A stretch of DNA of 64,000 nt from Beverwykella pulmonaria (taxonomy: Eukaryota; Ascomycota; Dothideomycetes; Pleosporales; Melanommataceae). A program made the position numbers and the translations under genes. Under the pieces are notes generated by a model. That model had not been told where the DNA came from and did no database searches. It saw only the letters and a list, made by a program, of their open reading frames with translations. The DNA lies in assembly GCA_001599595.1 (NCBI GenBank), contig BCHH01000002.1:906390-970389 (forward strand). The letters are read 5' to 3'. Shown in pieces: positions 631 through 9,200 of the stretch (the stretch's first letter is position 1; each line of letters starts with the position of its first letter).

Positions 631-1520
631 AGAAATAGAAGAGGCTCAGATAATAAGCATTGTAATCCTATCTAGAGGCAGAAGAAAGCATGAAGAAGAA
701 GAAGACGTAGAGGCCGGTAGAACTGGCCTCGCACTAAGGATCCGAGGCGAGCCGAAGGATCCTCCAACCAAGGCCCAGCCCTTTAAGAGAGATGAATCGC
801 TGCCAAGCCACGTTGGCAGCGGGGAACACTAATAGGCTAAATCACATGACATCTGAGCCATATTGCCTCCGTACAGGCCCGGTACCGGCCTTACAATTGC
901 GAAGGTGGTGAGATTTGGTGGGGTAGTTTCACGTTCACAACCAGTCATATACCCATCAGAGTATTACGCCAGAAGGACCTAGGTAGTATCCTTATAAGTC
1001 ACGTGATTTATTTGTGATCAGTATCCTTGGCGGAACCGATCACACTGATCATCAACCCTGATAATTCAATAGTTAGCAATACATTGGTTACTACTTGAAC
1101 AAATACTCTTTTTAGAAAGCCAATTCCTTTACTGTCTTAGTATTCGCACCGGTGGTCCTCCACCACTTACCCAGAGAACCCACCCGCTAGACCTCTATTG
1201 GTTCTCTTCCTCACCAGAAGCTCTTCAGCCATCTTCAGGGTCTTTACAAATCAGTACTTGAATTCTTTTTCCTAAAGATTAAACTACTAACGTCGTTAAT
1301 TTCTTCTAATCTTCTAAATGCTAACAAGAGATCTAAGAAGTTCTTGAAGTCTTGAAAAAACCTCTGCCTAACAGTGCTAATTTATATCTTCTGCTAGCAC
1401 CCAACACTTTGCACTTTTCATTATCTAGTAGTCGTTCCCCAATTATTCGGGTTGATGCTGTTGTACGTGTTCTGTATATGCTATTAGCGTAGATATCGAT
1501 GCCACAACAATTCGTTAACT
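631..1520. other. Intergenic between transposase remnant and HET gene
   Basis: No convincing gene is seen. Bases from about 1384 to 1520 are the 3' flank of the HET gene and belong to the inverted duplication described separately. A palindromic TCACGTGA lies near 1000 and could mark a transposon end, but no matching partner was found. Confidence 0.5.
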
Positions 1521-1740
1521 TCATACGCTAGTAATACTCCCAGTTATTCTAACTCCGTCTGTGGCCGTGCTGTGGACGTGGCCCATTACCACCCCCTGGT
1601 TTTTTTCAATCTTATCTCGATAACTAACATCGCCCATGTACACCGAGTATGTCTGTCCGCTGTCAGCTAGCTTCAGAAATGTGTGAAGTCTGGCAAACCT
1701 GGGAGCCCTTGGGCTGCTTGTCGAGGTCTGGTATCCGTCG
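1384..1740 (-). repeat. Inverted duplication, left arm (HET-gene copy of amyloid module)
   Basis: Read on the minus strand, this segment aligns almost end to end with 5720-6085 on the plus strand. It covers the last codons of the effector domain (DLDKQPKGS), a 46-bp intron, the 43-codon terminal exon and roughly 135 bp of 3' flank. Most differences between arms are transitions. Similarity fades abruptly at both ends, so this looks like a discrete duplicated cassette rather than two fully paralogous genes. Confidence 0.85.
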
Positions 1741-2481
1741 ATCGCTCAAAGATTCTTGTATCTCCCTTTGCAACCGTGCGAATGCTTTCCTTCGTCCCTC
1801 CCCGTAGATAAGTGGCATGTGTATATCGAAAATGCCGAGCAAGGAGTACGCCGCGTCTTCTTCGCGTTTTGTCTCACGTCCATGTGACCATGACATTCTT
1901 TCATCAATGCTAAACTCAGAAAGTGGGCTTCCTTTGAGCGCTTGCATAGATATTCTAGTTATATCGTGAATTTGTTGCGCAAGGGAATGTTTGCCACCCA
2001 GTCGCTCGCCCTCTGCAGAGAAAAAATCGACGGATATCGGAGCAAGAAGTTCTTGTAATGTCCAACCACGAACAAACCATCTGCTCTTTCTAAAGGCTTG
2101 GTTCCATGTCCGCTGAGGGTCATCTTTGACAGAGTGGTTGATCGAAACGTCCGATAGGTATACGTAGCATTTGGTGGCGTTGTGGTACCACTGAAACATA
2201 GAATTGATGGCTTCCGACAGTTCAGCGCTGCTAGACTTGTCAATACAGCAGGTGTCTACCCAAAAGTATTCCAAGCCGTCGTTAGCAGCCTGCTGCCCAC
2301 AGAACTGGATCTTGCTGTAGCCAGCCTTGCTCTTGCCTATGCCCTCTACTAGGTCTTTGAAATTGACTTCTTCGTTATCTGCACCCCATGTGTGTGACAG
2401 AATAGCATAGCATGGGATGTTGCTGCCATATGCTTCAATCAAACTAAATTCGCCGTCATCCCCAGACCGCAAAAGACGCAT
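1521..2481 (-). CDS. HET-domain effector with C-terminal amyloid-like motif
   Basis: Two exons on the minus strand: 2481-1699 and 1652-1521 (304 aa). Residues 1 to about 240 form a heterokaryon-incompatibility (HET, PF06985) domain close to those of the HET-E/HET-D type: YAILSHTWG, YFWVDTCCIDKSSSAELSEA, FVRGWTLQELLAP, then EEDAAYSLLGIF and PLIYGEG. An apparent TGA after the HET domain is removed by a 46-bp intron (donor CAG/GTTTGC, branch GCTGAC, acceptor CGGACAG). The last exon (residues 262-304) contains I-E-K-N-Q-G-V-V-M-G-H (276-286). That core is shared with the hydrolase downstream and with the N-terminus of the NOD-like receptor. HET domains trigger cell death when activated in known incompatibility systems. 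The inference is that the C-terminal motif receives an amyloid signal from the receptor. A Tc1/mariner remnant sits 160 bp upstream of the start codon. Confidence 0.85.
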
Positions 2482-2643
2482 GAGCGGAGAAGTGAGAATA
2501 TCGAAAAGGTATAGAGTAAATGGCGGCCGGACACAAAAATATAAGCAAAGCTACGCCGTCGATGTCCTGCGACTGTGCTGGTTGCTTGATGAGTTGGGAA
2601 GTTGATTATAGAGAGCGGGGCAGTGCAGAAATGACGGTTATTA

Positions 2644-3926
2644 TACACCCTCCACCCATGAACAGACTGTTAGCGCGCGCTGAGGCCCACTGACATTGGC
2701 CCGTGCATAGAATGTCAAAGAAATGTAGTTTTCAATATACAAAATATCACCAAACTGTCAACTACCACTTCGTAGGCCCACTACCTGATTTGATGACTGC
2801 CCAACAACGCTCTCGCATCAATTTGATATACTTTGTGTAGTCATCAATTTGAATCTTCTCCCACTCCTCCAATAGAAATTGCCTCACTTCAGCATTAGTT
2901 TTTGGAAAGCGCTTTGTTAACCTGTACTTTAGTAACTGCCAAACGTTTTCAATTGGATTAAGGTCTAGCGAGTTGACCAGCCACCACATTTTCTAGATTC
3001 TTGCTGCGTGATAGGCAGAGGTCGTCACCTTTGAGTTGTGTATTAAGGCGTTATCCTCTATATAAATAAGGTCTCTGCCTGTGTAGGTTTTCAAGCAGTA
3101 ATATATAGCAGATATATACATCTAACTTGACAGTCTTTTTCTTATTTGTACACTAAGCTTTTTCAAGGATAATAAAAGGCCCTTTTGCATCTATTAAGAT
3201 AATAGACTAGGCTATGCAGCTACTAAAATCTTTAAATTAAGGCGCGCAGCAATTAGGTAATTAGGCTTCCTTAGGTCTCCGCGTAACGTATAGCTCTCCT
3301 GCGCCTGTTCAAGCAACAATCTTATCACTCTAGCCAACATAAGCCCAGTCTTCATCTGTCCAGGATATGTGCTCCTATGCCCACTGTATCCGCTCAGCCT
3401 TGTAAGCATTAGTCAGAAAGGGCTCTAGTATTACCTTTCAGCAGTGATAGAGCTCCTTCTCAAAGGTCTTGACAAGTGTTCAACAGCAGACGTTGATTCC
3501 TAGCTCTTGGGCAATCTCCTTGCAAATTTTCTAGCGTTATTTAGCATTTTCAGTGGCATGGTGAACAAGAAGGTGTCAAAGGCGCGTATTTAGGATAGGT
3601 TTTTGACCCTTAGGTTTGGTAGGAGTCTTAGGCAATCAAAGACAATTAGAAATTGTACTCTAAGGGATCCCAAGCTTCTAAACAATTGCTGTTGGTTTCT
3701 ATCTAAGTTTAGCTAGAGTATAAATTTAAATGTGTTCCTTGTAGGTAAGACGACGTCTAGGTGTTTTTGGCATTGCGGGTGGATGATTGTGTTAGAAAAA
3801 ATACATAAAAATTGTATAGAAACCCTTATATAAACTTGTGTAATTTTTCCAGAAGCTTCGTGCAACTTCTATACACGGGCCAAAGACTGTGCGACGCTTA
3901 CAGTCCGGTCATGGATGGAGGGTGTA
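2644..3926. mobile_element. Decayed Tc1/mariner element with both terminal inverted repeats
   Basis: The left end begins TACACCCTCCACCCATGAAC (TA at 2644-2645). The right end, read in reverse, begins TACACCCTCCATCCATGACC (TA at 3925-3926). The ends align over about 70 bp, including a shared TTGGCCCGTG(C/T)ATAGAA block, with a small gap. A total of 1.28 kb bounded by TA is standard for Tc1/mariner. It inserted between the divergent HET and hydrolase genes. Confidence 0.88.
2762..3773 (-). pseudogene. Tc1/mariner transposase remnant
   Basis: Lies inside the inverted repeats on the minus strand. A plausible start (MPKTPRRRLTYKEH) is at 3773. The C-terminal DDE_3 block is intact over 2989-2762, with SLDLNPIENVWQLLKYRL matching the family's SPDLNPIENVW signature. 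Several stops and frame changes in between mean no functional transposase can be made. Confidence 0.85.
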
Positions 3927-4788
3927 TCAGCTCAAGTCACATCATAATGCTCCATGCTTGGCAAATGCCAAGAACACAGAGATCATGATAAGAAGACCTA
4001 CATAAACTACCCATCAGGTCGCAAAGAAGGCGGAAACAGTTGTCACAGTTGGGTTGTCTTCACGGTTCTAAGTTCACATTATTCCGACCGCGAGCCTCGT
4101 GCAGCCCCGGTAAAAGGTTCAACCCTCACGTCAACCAAATCAACAGCAACATTGTGGTATTTCAGAGTAAGATTGTTGTCCCATATATTGGACTCTAGTA
4201 CAATAACTGTTATCTATGCGGTGAATGTGCAAGGAAGGGCTAAATTCTGGTATACTGGCAGTATTTTGATATCTATCCAAGGCAGCCACATCAGCTGCGG
4301 CTGAACGTGCCTAAGGCTGACTCAAACTGGAGGTTGATGGAGGTGTGGTTGTTGCCTATATAACAAATACGAGGTGTGACCTTCTCAGAATTAACATGGA
4401 CGGGGACAGGACAATTAACAGCGCGCATGACCCGGTAATAATCGAAGATCACGTCGGACACCTTCGCCGTGCTATCAGCCATTATCATCTCGAGTTATTA
4501 TTCACGCTAGGATTAAGGACTTACACTTATGTGGTCTTTGAATGAATAGAGAGGAGCATGAAAGTGGCAGGGCAGAGTCTTGATGAATGCAGCTACGCAC
4601 ATTATATGTTTGCCGGCATAGCTCACATTTTCGAGCCATTTATTGGTCGTGGAAACGCCTATACATTCGCAAGAGCCCAAGGCAGCGCGCGCTCATGGTG
4701 AGATTAATAAAATGGGATACCCCTCTTTTCTTGCGTCAACACTCGGCCTTCTCGATTTGCTAGTCGCCTTTGCGCCATCTTCACCAAC
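3927..4788. other. Intergenic, upstream of hydrolase gene; possible decayed small gene
   Basis: Probable promoter of the hydrolase gene. On the minus strand, short stretches look protein-like (about 4488-4291, about 4218-4088, and a hydrophobic run at about 4010-3954). They lie in different frames with stops between them, and I could not connect them by convincing introns. This may be a decayed small gene or chance. Confidence 0.25.
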
Positions 4789-5945
4789 ATGTCAGAAATT
4801 ATTGGATTGGGGGATCCTCTTTTCGACACTTCAGAAGCAAAAGCAGAGTATGCATGAACCAGATTCCTCATTTTAAGCCCTAGCTGATAATGCAGTATTG
4901 TATTCATCCACGGGCTTGACGGTGGTAAGACTAAGACCTGGACATGGGAAGGAAGCGACAGGAAGCTTCTCTGGCCCCAAGAATTCCTTCCAAAAGCCTG
5001 TCCGACGGCTCGAATTCTTTCATTTGGCTACAATGCCAAGTTCGCCCACTTCTTTCCCCCCTCCGACTCGTCGGAGACATTGACTATCGACAGCCACTCA
5101 GCTGCGCTTTTGGAGAGCCTCAAAGATCTGCGCAAGAAAACCAAGACTGTAAGAAACAGATGGGAATGGTCGCCCTTTCACAACAATCTCGCTGATCTAT
5201 CTGCAGGCAAGACGTCCAGTGATCTTCGTCTGTCATAGCCTTGGGGGGCTTGTATGCGCCAATGCGTTATCAAGGGATCATGGGACGGACTCAGCCAGCG
5301 TTGGGCTCGTTGAGAAAACAAACGGAGTTGTCTTTCTCGGAACACCGTTCGAAGGGGCTTCGAAGGAGAAGTGGGCCGCCGTGGCCCGCAACGTGCTAGT
5401 CTGGATCGAAACAACGGACAAGGACGGGGAAGATCTCGAAGAGCGTTCTGCAAAGCTTATCGGCATCAATAATGATTTCTATCAGCTTCTTGAAGACCGA
5501 GGTCAATCAGAATCCAGGAAATCCATTGAGGTAGCTTTTTTCGTCGAGCAGTACGCTATGCACAAGTCTGGGCAAAAGATCAAGATAACGACCCCCAATG
5601 AGTTACCCAGTCTGCCTGGCATCACTCCGGAGCCGATCAAAGAAAACCACGTCAGCATGTGCAAGTTTGAAGACGATGACAGGGATGGATACTTGAATAT
5701 CTCACGGCGGTTGAATCAGTGGATATCAGACCTCGACAAGCAGCCCAAGGGTTCTGCCAGGAGCCAGGTTTGGCAGACTTCATACATTTCCGAAGCTAGC
5801 TGACAGCGGACAGACATACTCGGTGTACATGGGAGACGTCAACTATCAAGACAAGATTGAAAACAACCAAGGAGTAGTAATGGGCCATGCCAACAGCACG
5901 GCCACAGACGGAGTTAGAATAACTGGGAGCAGTACCAGCGTATGA
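4789..5945 (+). CDS. SesB-like alpha/beta-hydrolase effector with C-terminal amyloid-like motif
   Basis: Four exons: 4789-4847, 4896-5148, 5207-5767, 5814-5945 (334 aa). It begins with a short leader followed by IVFIHGLDGGKTKTWTW (strand and oxyanion loop of lipase-like SesB proteins). The nucleophile elbow is VICH-type: IFVCHSLGGLV, with Ser about residue 115. FLGTPFEGA follows, and a C-terminal histidine lies in ENHVSMCKF. All three introns have recognisable donors and acceptors; the first creates the KADIVFIHGL junction. The last intron (46 bp, CAG/GTTTGG, branch GCTGAC) removes an apparent stop and joins residues 292-334, which carry I-E-N-N-Q-G-V-V-M-G-H (306-316). Family knowledge: SesB-type hydrolases with C-terminal amyloid motifs act as membrane- or lipid-directed cell-death effectors of NLRs. 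Here the partner would be the receptor starting 540 bp downstream. Confidence 0.87.
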
Positions 5946-6085
5946 AGTCAACAAATTGTTGCGGCATTAATATACGCTGATAGCATATACAGAACACATA
6001 CAACAGCATCAACCCGAATAATTTGTAGGACGACTACTAGATAATGAAAAGTGCAAAGCGTTGGGTGCCAGCGGTAGAGGATATT
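5720..6085 (+). repeat. Inverted duplication, right arm (hydrolase copy of amyloid module)
   Basis: Matches the reverse complement of 1384-1740. The alignment covers the DLDKQPKGS hinge, the intron, the whole terminal exon and the 3' flank up to about 6085, including conserved non-coding blocks such as CAGCATCAACCCGAATAAT. Conservation beyond the stop codon implies that DNA, not only protein, was copied recently. Confidence 0.85.
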
Positions 6086-6486
6086 GTAACGAAATAGAAG
6101 AGGCTCAAATATTATATTAATCCAGCTTAAAAAGGTAGAAGGTACTTCAGCTTAAATGAATTGCCATCCATATTTTAGGACAAAACGTTGTACGAGAGAA
6201 GGTTTGTGTGAATGCCAAGCTTTATCTACCAAATAATAAGGCTGTCCAGGGATGGCCTATTATCTAATAAAACTGATAGGATATTTTATTACCCGCAACC
6301 CTGGTCGGCGCCGCCCTTGCACGTGCCATACTTCAATTAAAAGGACCGTGCCGCGTGAATGCGGATCGCCGTAATGAAAGTTCAGCTCAACTCAGTCCGG
6401 CACAGCACAACAACCAAGCTGCACTGCGCTCTTTTTATGAGTTCGTAGTTGCAATTACAATTATCATAAGCATAGTCTCGTTAGTA
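5946..6486. other. Intergenic between hydrolase and NLR
   Basis: The first ~140 bp is the 3' flank shared with the HET gene. The remainder is AT-rich and presumably holds the hydrolase terminator and the receptor promoter. No gene is seen. Confidence 0.5.
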
Positions 6487-9200
6487 ATGACGGACAATGC
6501 GCCGACAGTCACCACAGGCACAAAGGCGTTTGGTGCGATTTCTAACAACTATGGGGTTGTAGTTGGCGACGCGCTAAACTCACATATAATCGGTGCGGTT
6601 TGTCAACGTCAACGTCGATAGTCTATTCTATACTCACGTCAGACAGGCTCGCAGACAAACAACAACTACTACCCAGGCAAGTTGTCATCCGCGAGTTGGT
6701 GCAATGAACTGAGGCTGACGGCATCCTCTCCTGCAGCAAGACCAGAGACACCGTCAAGCCCTTCCTGCGCTGTTCCCTTTCGCCGTGACCTGGACTTCGT
6801 CGATCGCGGAACGCTGCTCGATCAGATATGCGAAAAATGCACTGCGCCAGCGTCGCGGATAGCGCTGGTGGGCCTGGGCGGTGTAGGGTAAGCTAAAAGG
6901 ACACTCAGGCTGATGCCCGCACCTAACGCTGGCATAGGAAGTCGCAGCTTGCTATTGAGCACTGCTATCGAACTGCAGATCAGTCGCCGGAGACGTGGGT
7001 GTTCTGGGTGCACGCTAGCAGCGCGGCCCGCATTGAACAAGGTTACCGAGACATTGCGGACCAAATCAAGCTAGCTGGCCGGAAAGACCCACAAGCGGAT
7101 GTGTTTAAGCTCGTTTCTAACTGGCTTCGCAACGAGAAGAATGGGAAGTGGCTACTGGTCCTTGACAATGCCGACGATATCGCTGCCCTCTCTCTACCAG
7201 CAAGCCATGACCAGAAGACACGGGCGACCGGCGGAGGTGGCGCTAGCCCACGTTACTTCTCATCGTATCTACCCCAGAGCAAGAACGGCTCGGTTCTGGT
7301 GACCAGTCGGACGAGGAGCGTGGCGTTGCAGCTGGTAGAGGGGAGAGATATTATACCCATTGAGCCAATGGACAACGTCAGCGCGCAAGCTCTTCTGCAA
7401 AAGAAATTAGGGGAGAAGGACAAGGACAGCACTGCCGAGCTAGCAGAGGCTCTTGAATTCATGCCCCTTGCTCTTGTGCAGGCGGCGGCATACATCCAAG
7501 AACAAGGACCAAGGTGTTCAGTAAAGCAATACCTAGAGGCGTTCTACAAGAGCGACAGGAAAAGGACAAGCCTGCTAGACTACGCGGGAGGCAGTCTTCG
7601 GAGAGACGACGAAGCTAAGAACGCTATTCTTATAACATGGCAAATCTCTTTTAACCATATACTAGACGCAAGGCCGTCAGCGGCAGACTTGTTGTCATTA
7701 ATGAGCTTCTTTGACCGCCAGGGGATTCCTGAAGTACTAGTTTGCAACCAAAGTAGGAGAGGTAACAGATGCAGGGCTATAGAAGCTATCTATGCAGACG
7801 GCAAAAATACTGACAGCGACAATAGCGAGTCAGAAGCCAGCATTGACGACGGATTTGAAGAGGATATTCTTACGCTAAGGAACTACTCGTTTATTGCGCT
7901 TACTACTAACGCAACTACGTTTGACATGCATAGGCTTGTGCAGCTAGCTACACAAAAGTGGTTAGAAGGGCAGGGCAAACTAGAAACGTGGAAGCAGCAG
8001 TACATTAAAAATCTTTGCACAGTATTTCCAACAGGGGAACACAAGAACTGGGCCCAATGCCAGACGCTCTTTCCACACGCCAAGTTAGCGCTGTTCCAGC
8101 CACCTAAGTCTAAAGAATCCCTTAGACAGTGGGCTCTATTGTTGTACAAGGCAGCGTGGTATGCATGGCAAAAAGGAAGTCTAAGTGATGCTGAGAAACT
8201 GTCAGTAAGGTCAATGAAGGTTAGGACAAAGCTGTTTGGTAAAGAGCATACAGACACATTAAGCAGTATGGAAATAGTAGGGCTAGTAACAAAGCTTGCG
8301 GGACGGTGGAGAGAGGCAGAAGAGCTAGAGGTGCAAGTAATGGAGACTAGAAAGAGGGTGCTTGGGTCGGAGCATCCAGACACGCTGACCAGCATGGCCA
8401 ACCTGGCGTCAACGTATAGGAATCAAGGGCAGTGGAAGGAGGCTGAAGAGCTGCAAGCAAAAGAACTAAAAATATGTTTGAGGGTGCTTGGGTCAGAGCA
8501 TCCAGACACGCTAACCAGCATGGCCAACCTTGCATCAACGTANANNAATCAAGGGCNGTGGAAGGAGGCTGAAGAGCTGCAAGCAAAAGAACTAGAAATA
8601 TGTTCAAGGGTGCTTGGGGGGGAGCATCCAGACACGCTTACTAGCATGGCCAACTTAGCGTCGACGTTTTGGAATCAAGGGCGGTGGAAGGAGGCTGAAG
8701 AGCTGGAGGTGCAAGTGATGGAGATAAGAAAGAGGCTGCTTGGGGAGGAGCATCCAGACACGTTNACNAGCATNGCCAACCTGGCNTCGACGTNNNGGNA
8801 TCAAGGGCGGTGGAAGGAGGCGGAAGAGCTGGAGGTGCAAGTGATAGAGACAAGAAAGAGGGTGCTTGGGGAGGAGCATCCAGACACGTTGACTATCATT
8901 GCCAACCTGGCGTCGACATTTTGGAATCAAGGGCGGTGGATGGAGGCCGAAGAGCTGGAGGTGCAAGTGATGGAGACAAGAAAGAGGGTGCTTGGGGAGG
9001 AGCATCCAGACACGTTGACCAGCATGGCCAACCTGGCACACACGTTCAAGTCCCAAAGCCGGAATGAAGAAGCTATCTTGTTGATGAAAAAGTGCTTCAA
9101 GCTACAGAAGCAGATCCTTGGCCGTCACCATCCTGATACAGAGACTTCGCTCGAATCTCTATATGGGTGGCAACTTGAGAATGCAGAGAGAGAAATTTAA
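6487..9200 (+). CDS. NOD-like receptor: N-terminal amyloid-like motif, NB-ARC, TPR repeats
   Basis: Proposed exons are 6487-6597, 6643-6887 (or 6655-6887) and 6938-9200, about 872 aa. Exon 1 (37 aa) carries A-I-S-N-N-Y-G-V-V-V-G-D (17-28), matching the C-terminal core of both neighbouring effectors. The NB-ARC domain shows a P-loop GLGGVGKSQ (about 114-122, split by a 50-bp intron with branch CTAAC), Walker B KWLLVLDNADD, the sensor-like GSVLVTSRTR, EFMPLALVQAAAYI, and the MHD-equivalent FDMHRLVQLATQKW. From about residue 535, 42-residue TPR_10/12-type repeats with EHPDTLTSMANLAST run to the C-terminus. An in-frame TAG at 6619-6621 must be removed by the first intron (GTTTGT donor, acceptor 6642 or 6654, both in phase). 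This intron is less certain than the others. In known systems such receptors sense a ligand through the repeats and template amyloid folding of effector motifs. Confidence 0.87.
8301..9170 (+). repeat. Near-identical 126-bp TPR-coding tandem repeats with unresolved bases
   Basis: Six close copies of a 126-bp (42-codon) unit run in phase, flanked by diverged copies. Two sequence subtypes alternate: one with LQAKELK/EIC and one with LEVQVMETRKR. Twelve N bases (8543, 8545, 8546, 8557, 8765, 8768, 8774, 8786, 8794-8796, 8799) fall inside the repeats, as expected if reads from different copies were collapsed. High internal identity is typical of fungal NLR repeats undergoing concerted evolution and diversification. 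Confidence 0.9.

Follow-up and report, generated by a model that had tools for sequence, protein, structure and literature searches.

Three neighbouring genes of the fungus Beverwykella pulmonaria (Pleosporales) carry one short motif, which stands at the C-terminus of two effectors, a HET-domain protein and a SesB-like hydrolase, and at the N-terminus of the adjacent NOD-like receptor (NLR). The genes lie in the window that we analysed, a stretch of 64,000 nucleotides (contig BCHH01000002.1, positions 906,390 to 970,389) of a genome of 45.6 Mb in 31 contigs. The locus has the architecture of an NLR-associated amyloid locus, with an NLR lacking an effector domain, an N-terminal motif on it and an adjacent effector with a homologous C-terminal motif. 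Judging from sequence, the three genes probably form an amyloid-type signalling cluster, in which we infer amyloid behaviour of the motif. It is possible, and we put it forward tentatively, that HET, a TIR-like domain, is a missing arm of fungal amyloid signalling. It would be coupled in trans via three motifs (the valine-core motif of this locus, sigma and GGTMNFNF), and at least here would have gained its motif by a copied 3' gene end comprising intron, motif and flank; the valine-core motif would then form an amyloid class of its own, found in both Dothideomycetes and Lecanoromycetes.

The shared motif and its three genes

A profile of nine effector tails matched the NLR profile at 93% in hhalign (E 3.4e-7), and the column-shuffle control of this match gave 0 of 300. 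This bears out the first-pass annotation, which had described C-terminal effector motifs facing an N-terminal receptor motif. The motif has the valine-core pattern NxG[AV][VI][MVL]G, and the similarity extends into the second NLR exon (GSQTNNNYYPG). A SesB-type tail was present in seven of 13 outside candidate proteins, three of the seven being shorter models (185, 235 and 273 residues). The four carriers with a named source, Phaeosphaeriaceae sp. PMI808, Lindgomyces ingoldianus, Neocucurbitaria cava and Neocucurbitaria sp. VM-36, all belong to the Pleosporales, and the remaining three come from assemblies without a source name. In a separate search with the NLR N-terminus, one of 13 candidates matched, a partial NACHT-ankyrin NLR from Peltigera leucophlebia (Lecanoromycetes), whose N-terminus was 62% identical (87% of 60 residues; E 2e-8). 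Because this NLR has the same N-terminus and carries ankyrin repeats, the motif occurs on two receptor scaffolds, NB-ARC/TPR (tetratricopeptide repeat) and NACHT-ankyrin. Known amyloid-signalling motifs likewise sit on more than one receptor scaffold. The first-pass annotation had missed this conservation of the motif in other fungi. Within its own genome, six-frame searches in which the best candidates were scored placed it at this locus only, on two effector tails and one receptor.

The motif is short, its single terminal alignments are modest, and Ns are scattered through the TPR region of the assembly, all of which could suggest that the likeness arose by chance or from faulty gene prediction. 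However, the shuffle control, the recovery of the motif from outside sequences and a lichen-fungus NLR whose N-terminus is homologous largely refute this explanation, which we regard as hardly credible.

The HET exon matched PF06985 at 51.9 bits (cut-off 22.5) with the whole domain present, and the predicted structure of the protein reached a predicted template modelling score (pTM) of 0.82. Its HET domain aligned end to end, at 62-73% identity, with those of 18 paralogs in the same genome; a 19th (L032), which has an in-frame stop, was left out of this alignment. The SesB-like protein matched PF12697 at 26.6 bits, slightly above the cut-off of 26.3, and by inspection its VCHSLGG resembles a serine-nucleophile stretch; the protein is a putative lipase. 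A domain scan of the predicted NLR recognised no effector domain of its own. Its TPR units recur every 126 bp at window positions 8175-9104, with copies 69-81% identical and scattered Ns; this pattern is typical of variable-length NLR repeats, which are hard to assemble.

If the genes are expressed and spliced as modelled (Table 1), a ligand bound by the TPR repeats would cause the NB-ARC domain to oligomerise and bring the N-terminal motifs together. The clustered motifs would fold into a cross-beta template, which would convert the homologous C-terminal motifs of the SesB-like hydrolase and the HET (TIR-like) cell-death protein and activate both. It is quite improbable, in our opinion, that the motif serves instead as a non-amyloid homotypic docking peptide, an explanation favoured by several charged residues (K, E, H, D, R) kept beside the core in the effector tail.

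Table 1. Features of the locus (window coordinates; gene models are predicted)
Feature	Position	Strand	Description
HET effector gene	1521-2481	-	exon 2481-1699, intron 1698-1653, last exon 1652-1521; 304 aa (open reading frame (ORF) + splice model)
HET exon 1	1699-2481	-	HET domain (residues 1-~250) and first residues of captured linker
HET intron	1653-1698	-	46 bp, ahead of motif exon; homologous to SesB intron
HET last exon	1521-1652	-	43-residue C-terminal motif and stop; core IEKNQGVVMGH
Captured 3' gene end, HET side	1387-1736	-	~350 bp, inverted copy of 5721-6078 (inverted repeats)
Degenerate Tc1/mariner-like element	2643-3927		between HET and SesB; 33-bp terminal inverted repeats
SesB-like hydrolase gene	4789-5945	+	four exons, 334 aa (gene model)
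SesB-like alpha/beta hydrolase body	4789-5767	+	exons 4789-4847, 4896-5148, 5207-5767
SesB last exon	5814-5945	+	43-residue C-terminal motif and stop; core IENNQGVVMGH
Donor block	5721-6078	+	hydrolase end, linker, intron, motif exon, 133 bp of 3' flank
NB-ARC/TPR NLR gene	6487-9200	+	three exons, 869 aa (gene model)
NLR exon 1	6487-6592	+	106 nt; N-terminal motif, core ISNNYGVVVGDALNS, residues 18-32
NLR exon 2	6647-6887	+	motif end (GSQTNNNYYPGK), linker, NB-ARC start up to P-loop
NLR exon 3	6938-9200	+	NB-ARC and about seven 42-residue TPR units (126-bp period)

Duplication of the hydrolase 3' end

The HET arm was probably a later addition, in which a HET gene received an inverted copy of the SesB 3' end and thereby obtained the linker, the intron, the motif exon and the 3' flank together. 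The first-pass annotation had not recognised the shared tail as a duplicated gene end. The edge of the duplication is sharp and in frame at 1736/5721, with 95% of 38 aligned sites identical inside it vs 38% of 21 outside. Identity is 93.5% in the intron (1653-1698 vs 5768-5813), 87.1% in the motif exon (86% between the two 43-residue motif copies) and, in the flank, which extends about 130 bp past the stop, 90.2% over 132 aligned sites (27 gap columns). SesB is taken as the donor, because in seven of seven outside proteins, too, the hydrolase end is followed first by the linker and then by the motif. Both window copies stop short of the NTYNG ending found in the outside proteins, and therefore this difference likely predates the duplication.

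Between the two motif exons, nonsynonymous divergence (dN) was 0.062 and synonymous divergence (dS) 0.556, giving a dN/dS of 0.11. Divergence was 0.069 in the intron and 0.109 in the flank. Because the dS of the motif exon is larger than both values, patchy gene conversion may have played a part. The differences between the exons (5832-5894 vs 1572-1634) cluster in codons 7-27, and codons 28-38 are identical. A 29-bp repeat, 90% identical, occurs at 627-655, beside a DDE_1 fragment, and at 6086-6114, 8 bp past the end of the donor block at 6078; it may be a mark of how the 3' end was copied.

A chance duplication of the 3' end could also have left the HET protein with a passenger tail that does not signal, in which case SesB and the NLR would be the only functional pair. 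The weak score between HET tail and NLR, the absence of any HET protein bearing the SesB-type tail from the outside sequences searched and the damage in the HET-sigma genes elsewhere in this genome all speak for a passenger and count against a signalling HET arm. However, the HET ORF is intact and a canonical intron links it in frame to the motif exon, whose low dN/dS also indicates constraint, though constraint on the SesB side is included in that value. Elsewhere in the genome, too, HET is attached to NLR motifs, in one case with the frame intact. We therefore consider a passenger tail unlikely and prefer a HET arm that takes part in signalling.

The valine core and known motif classes

The first-pass annotation could place the motif in no named class, and this still holds, since none of the published patterns that could be tested was found in it. 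The valine-core motif differs from sigma and, less surely, from the PP-like motifs of its own genome. The PP core NxGxQxGxN is retained in its N, first G and last G, and its central Q is replaced by V or I in all 11 instances (nine effector tails, the window NLR and the Peltigera NLR). The motif might thus be a diverged, RHIM-like PP motif, in which glutamine changed to valine and the mechanism stayed the same. We regard this as somewhat unlikely, because hhalign gave 0.6% (effectors) and 5.1% (NLR) against five same-genome PP-like motifs, vs 93% between effectors and NLR, no instance has the central Q, and we saw nothing in PP that corresponds to the conserved stretches beyond the core (MGDVNY..., TATDGVRITGSSTSNTY). 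The profile PF17046, called PP (misnamed SesB) in PMC12261475, had no match in the genome; this negative is weak because the profile also missed a visible PP-like pair on contig C10.

For sigma, PF17106 gave nine genome matches on four contigs and none in the window. Sigma proteins of the same genome were recognised by the Pfam scan that was negative in the window; the valine-core motif scored 0.1% and 0.4% against sigma in hhalign. No PF11558 match indicating HRAM was obtained at E<=10, though HMMER filters can drop such short motifs, and we saw one core per effector in the window vs two 21-residue motifs in HRAM effectors. Inspection of the motifs revealed neither the PUASM (FxGxGxQxxGxGxF) nor the GDQN (NxxxGxQYxxxGxGDQNxVSxxxxQxN) pattern. 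The accessible part of PMC9815663 lists NLR34 (Ascomycota, 28 aa) and NLR19 (Tuber, 27 aa), both without effector partners. The valine-core motif could prove to be one of these unassigned classes, for instance NLR34.

Known systems and relatives in the genome

The first-pass annotation had also considered two unlike effectors on one receptor to be unusual, and this did not stand. According to the accessible parts of the respective papers, PNT1 of Chaetomium globosum serves HELLP and the putative lipase SBP (PMC7885112), and HET-eN of Nectria haematococca serves SesA and SesB (PMC5485727). What is unusual in the window is HET as a motif-coupled effector in trans, the valine-core motif and the captured 3' end. 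The C. globosum PP cluster, as far as the available text of PMC7885112 describes it, resembles the window in that a single NLR, bearing the motif at its N-terminus, adjoins two effectors that carry it at the C-terminus, one a putative lipase; however, its second effector is HeLo-like instead of HET, and its core has a central Q where the window motif has V or I. The available text of PMC3321046 gives the sesA/sesB/het-eN locus of N. haematococca a SesB-type hydrolase, a second effector and a STAND receptor sharing one motif; as in the window, the receptor gene has an intron close to its 5' end. In contrast, its second effector is SesA and its GxGxQFNxx/GGTQNINT motif (PF17106) is absent from the window and present elsewhere in the genome.

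HET-S/NWD2 (HRAM) likewise consists of adjacent genes, the receptor motif templating the effector motif, as we assume for the window, but its effector has a HeLo domain and a 21-residue motif twice, neither of which was seen here. In HNWD-type receptors (HET-E/HET-D/HET-R) the same HET family is under NLR control, with HET in cis; in the window it is on a separate polypeptide and would act in trans. In its accessible part, PMC3321046 describes a Fusarium graminearum locus with NAD, SesA and STAND genes, and a targeted survey of 2012 that sought a HET gene beside an effector-less STAND gene and found none; that of PMC9815663 names HeLo, HeLo-like and PNP_UDP partners and not HET. No HET effector with such a motif was found in the literature searched, partly in incomplete texts and with most subscription papers and preprints outside its coverage.

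A HET effector tagged like the adjacent NLR offers a concrete, testable route to the control of HET proteins and would join the HET/TIR branch of fungal immunity to its amyloid branch. The duplication illustrates, at the DNA level, how a receptor can gain a second output in one step, and this bears on how NLRs of cis and of trans design change into one another. The real requirements of an amyloid signalling core would be put to the test by a motif that lacks the PP glutamine.

The nearest paralog of the window NLR (contig C10, 1026378-1027950; L054/L055) is 85% identical in NB-ARC and has a PP-like N-terminal motif. It adjoins a divergently oriented HeLo-like (PF17111) gene ending in a matching PP-like motif, and because of this pairing the receptor lineage of the window is one used for motif-coupled signalling. 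The C10 motif GFQAGIING went unreported by PF17046. The next paralog, on C8 (78%), has a different N-terminus.

Among the 19 nearest HET paralogs, 13 have HET followed in cis by a NACHT- or NB-ARC-type P-loop, as read by eye. HET is joined to sigma on C6 and C9, both copies being damaged. The C6 copy (L050:2031-2699) lacks the first 75 residues of the HET domain and carries at its C-terminus a sigma motif with a strong match (64.7 bits, PF17106). The C9 cluster (1849500-1856000; L051), the last 900 bases of which read N, contains a NACHT NLR, a SesA effector with a sigma tail and a damaged HET that has a sigma motif after it, and is a relic HET/STAND pair. Eight NB-ARC frames, six of which were read (L059-L064), are immediately preceded by a third motif, [FY]xGPxDGxxV[VI]P...GGTxNFNF, whose surroundings were covered within 1.5 kb. 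An intact standalone HET protein on C15 (466428-467330; L018:1501-2403) ends in a related GGTMNFNF-type tail. By its sequence, this motif likely represents another class of amyloid type that includes a HET effector.

The element between the HET and SesB genes, putatively Tc1/mariner-like and with a transposase-like fragment at 2762-2992, is outside the signalling system. A transposon remnant at 205-630 is a DDE_1 transposase fragment. On C6 (1061924-1062037; L056) there is a PP-like N-terminus of NLR type with Y for the central Q (NYGFYAGTIN).
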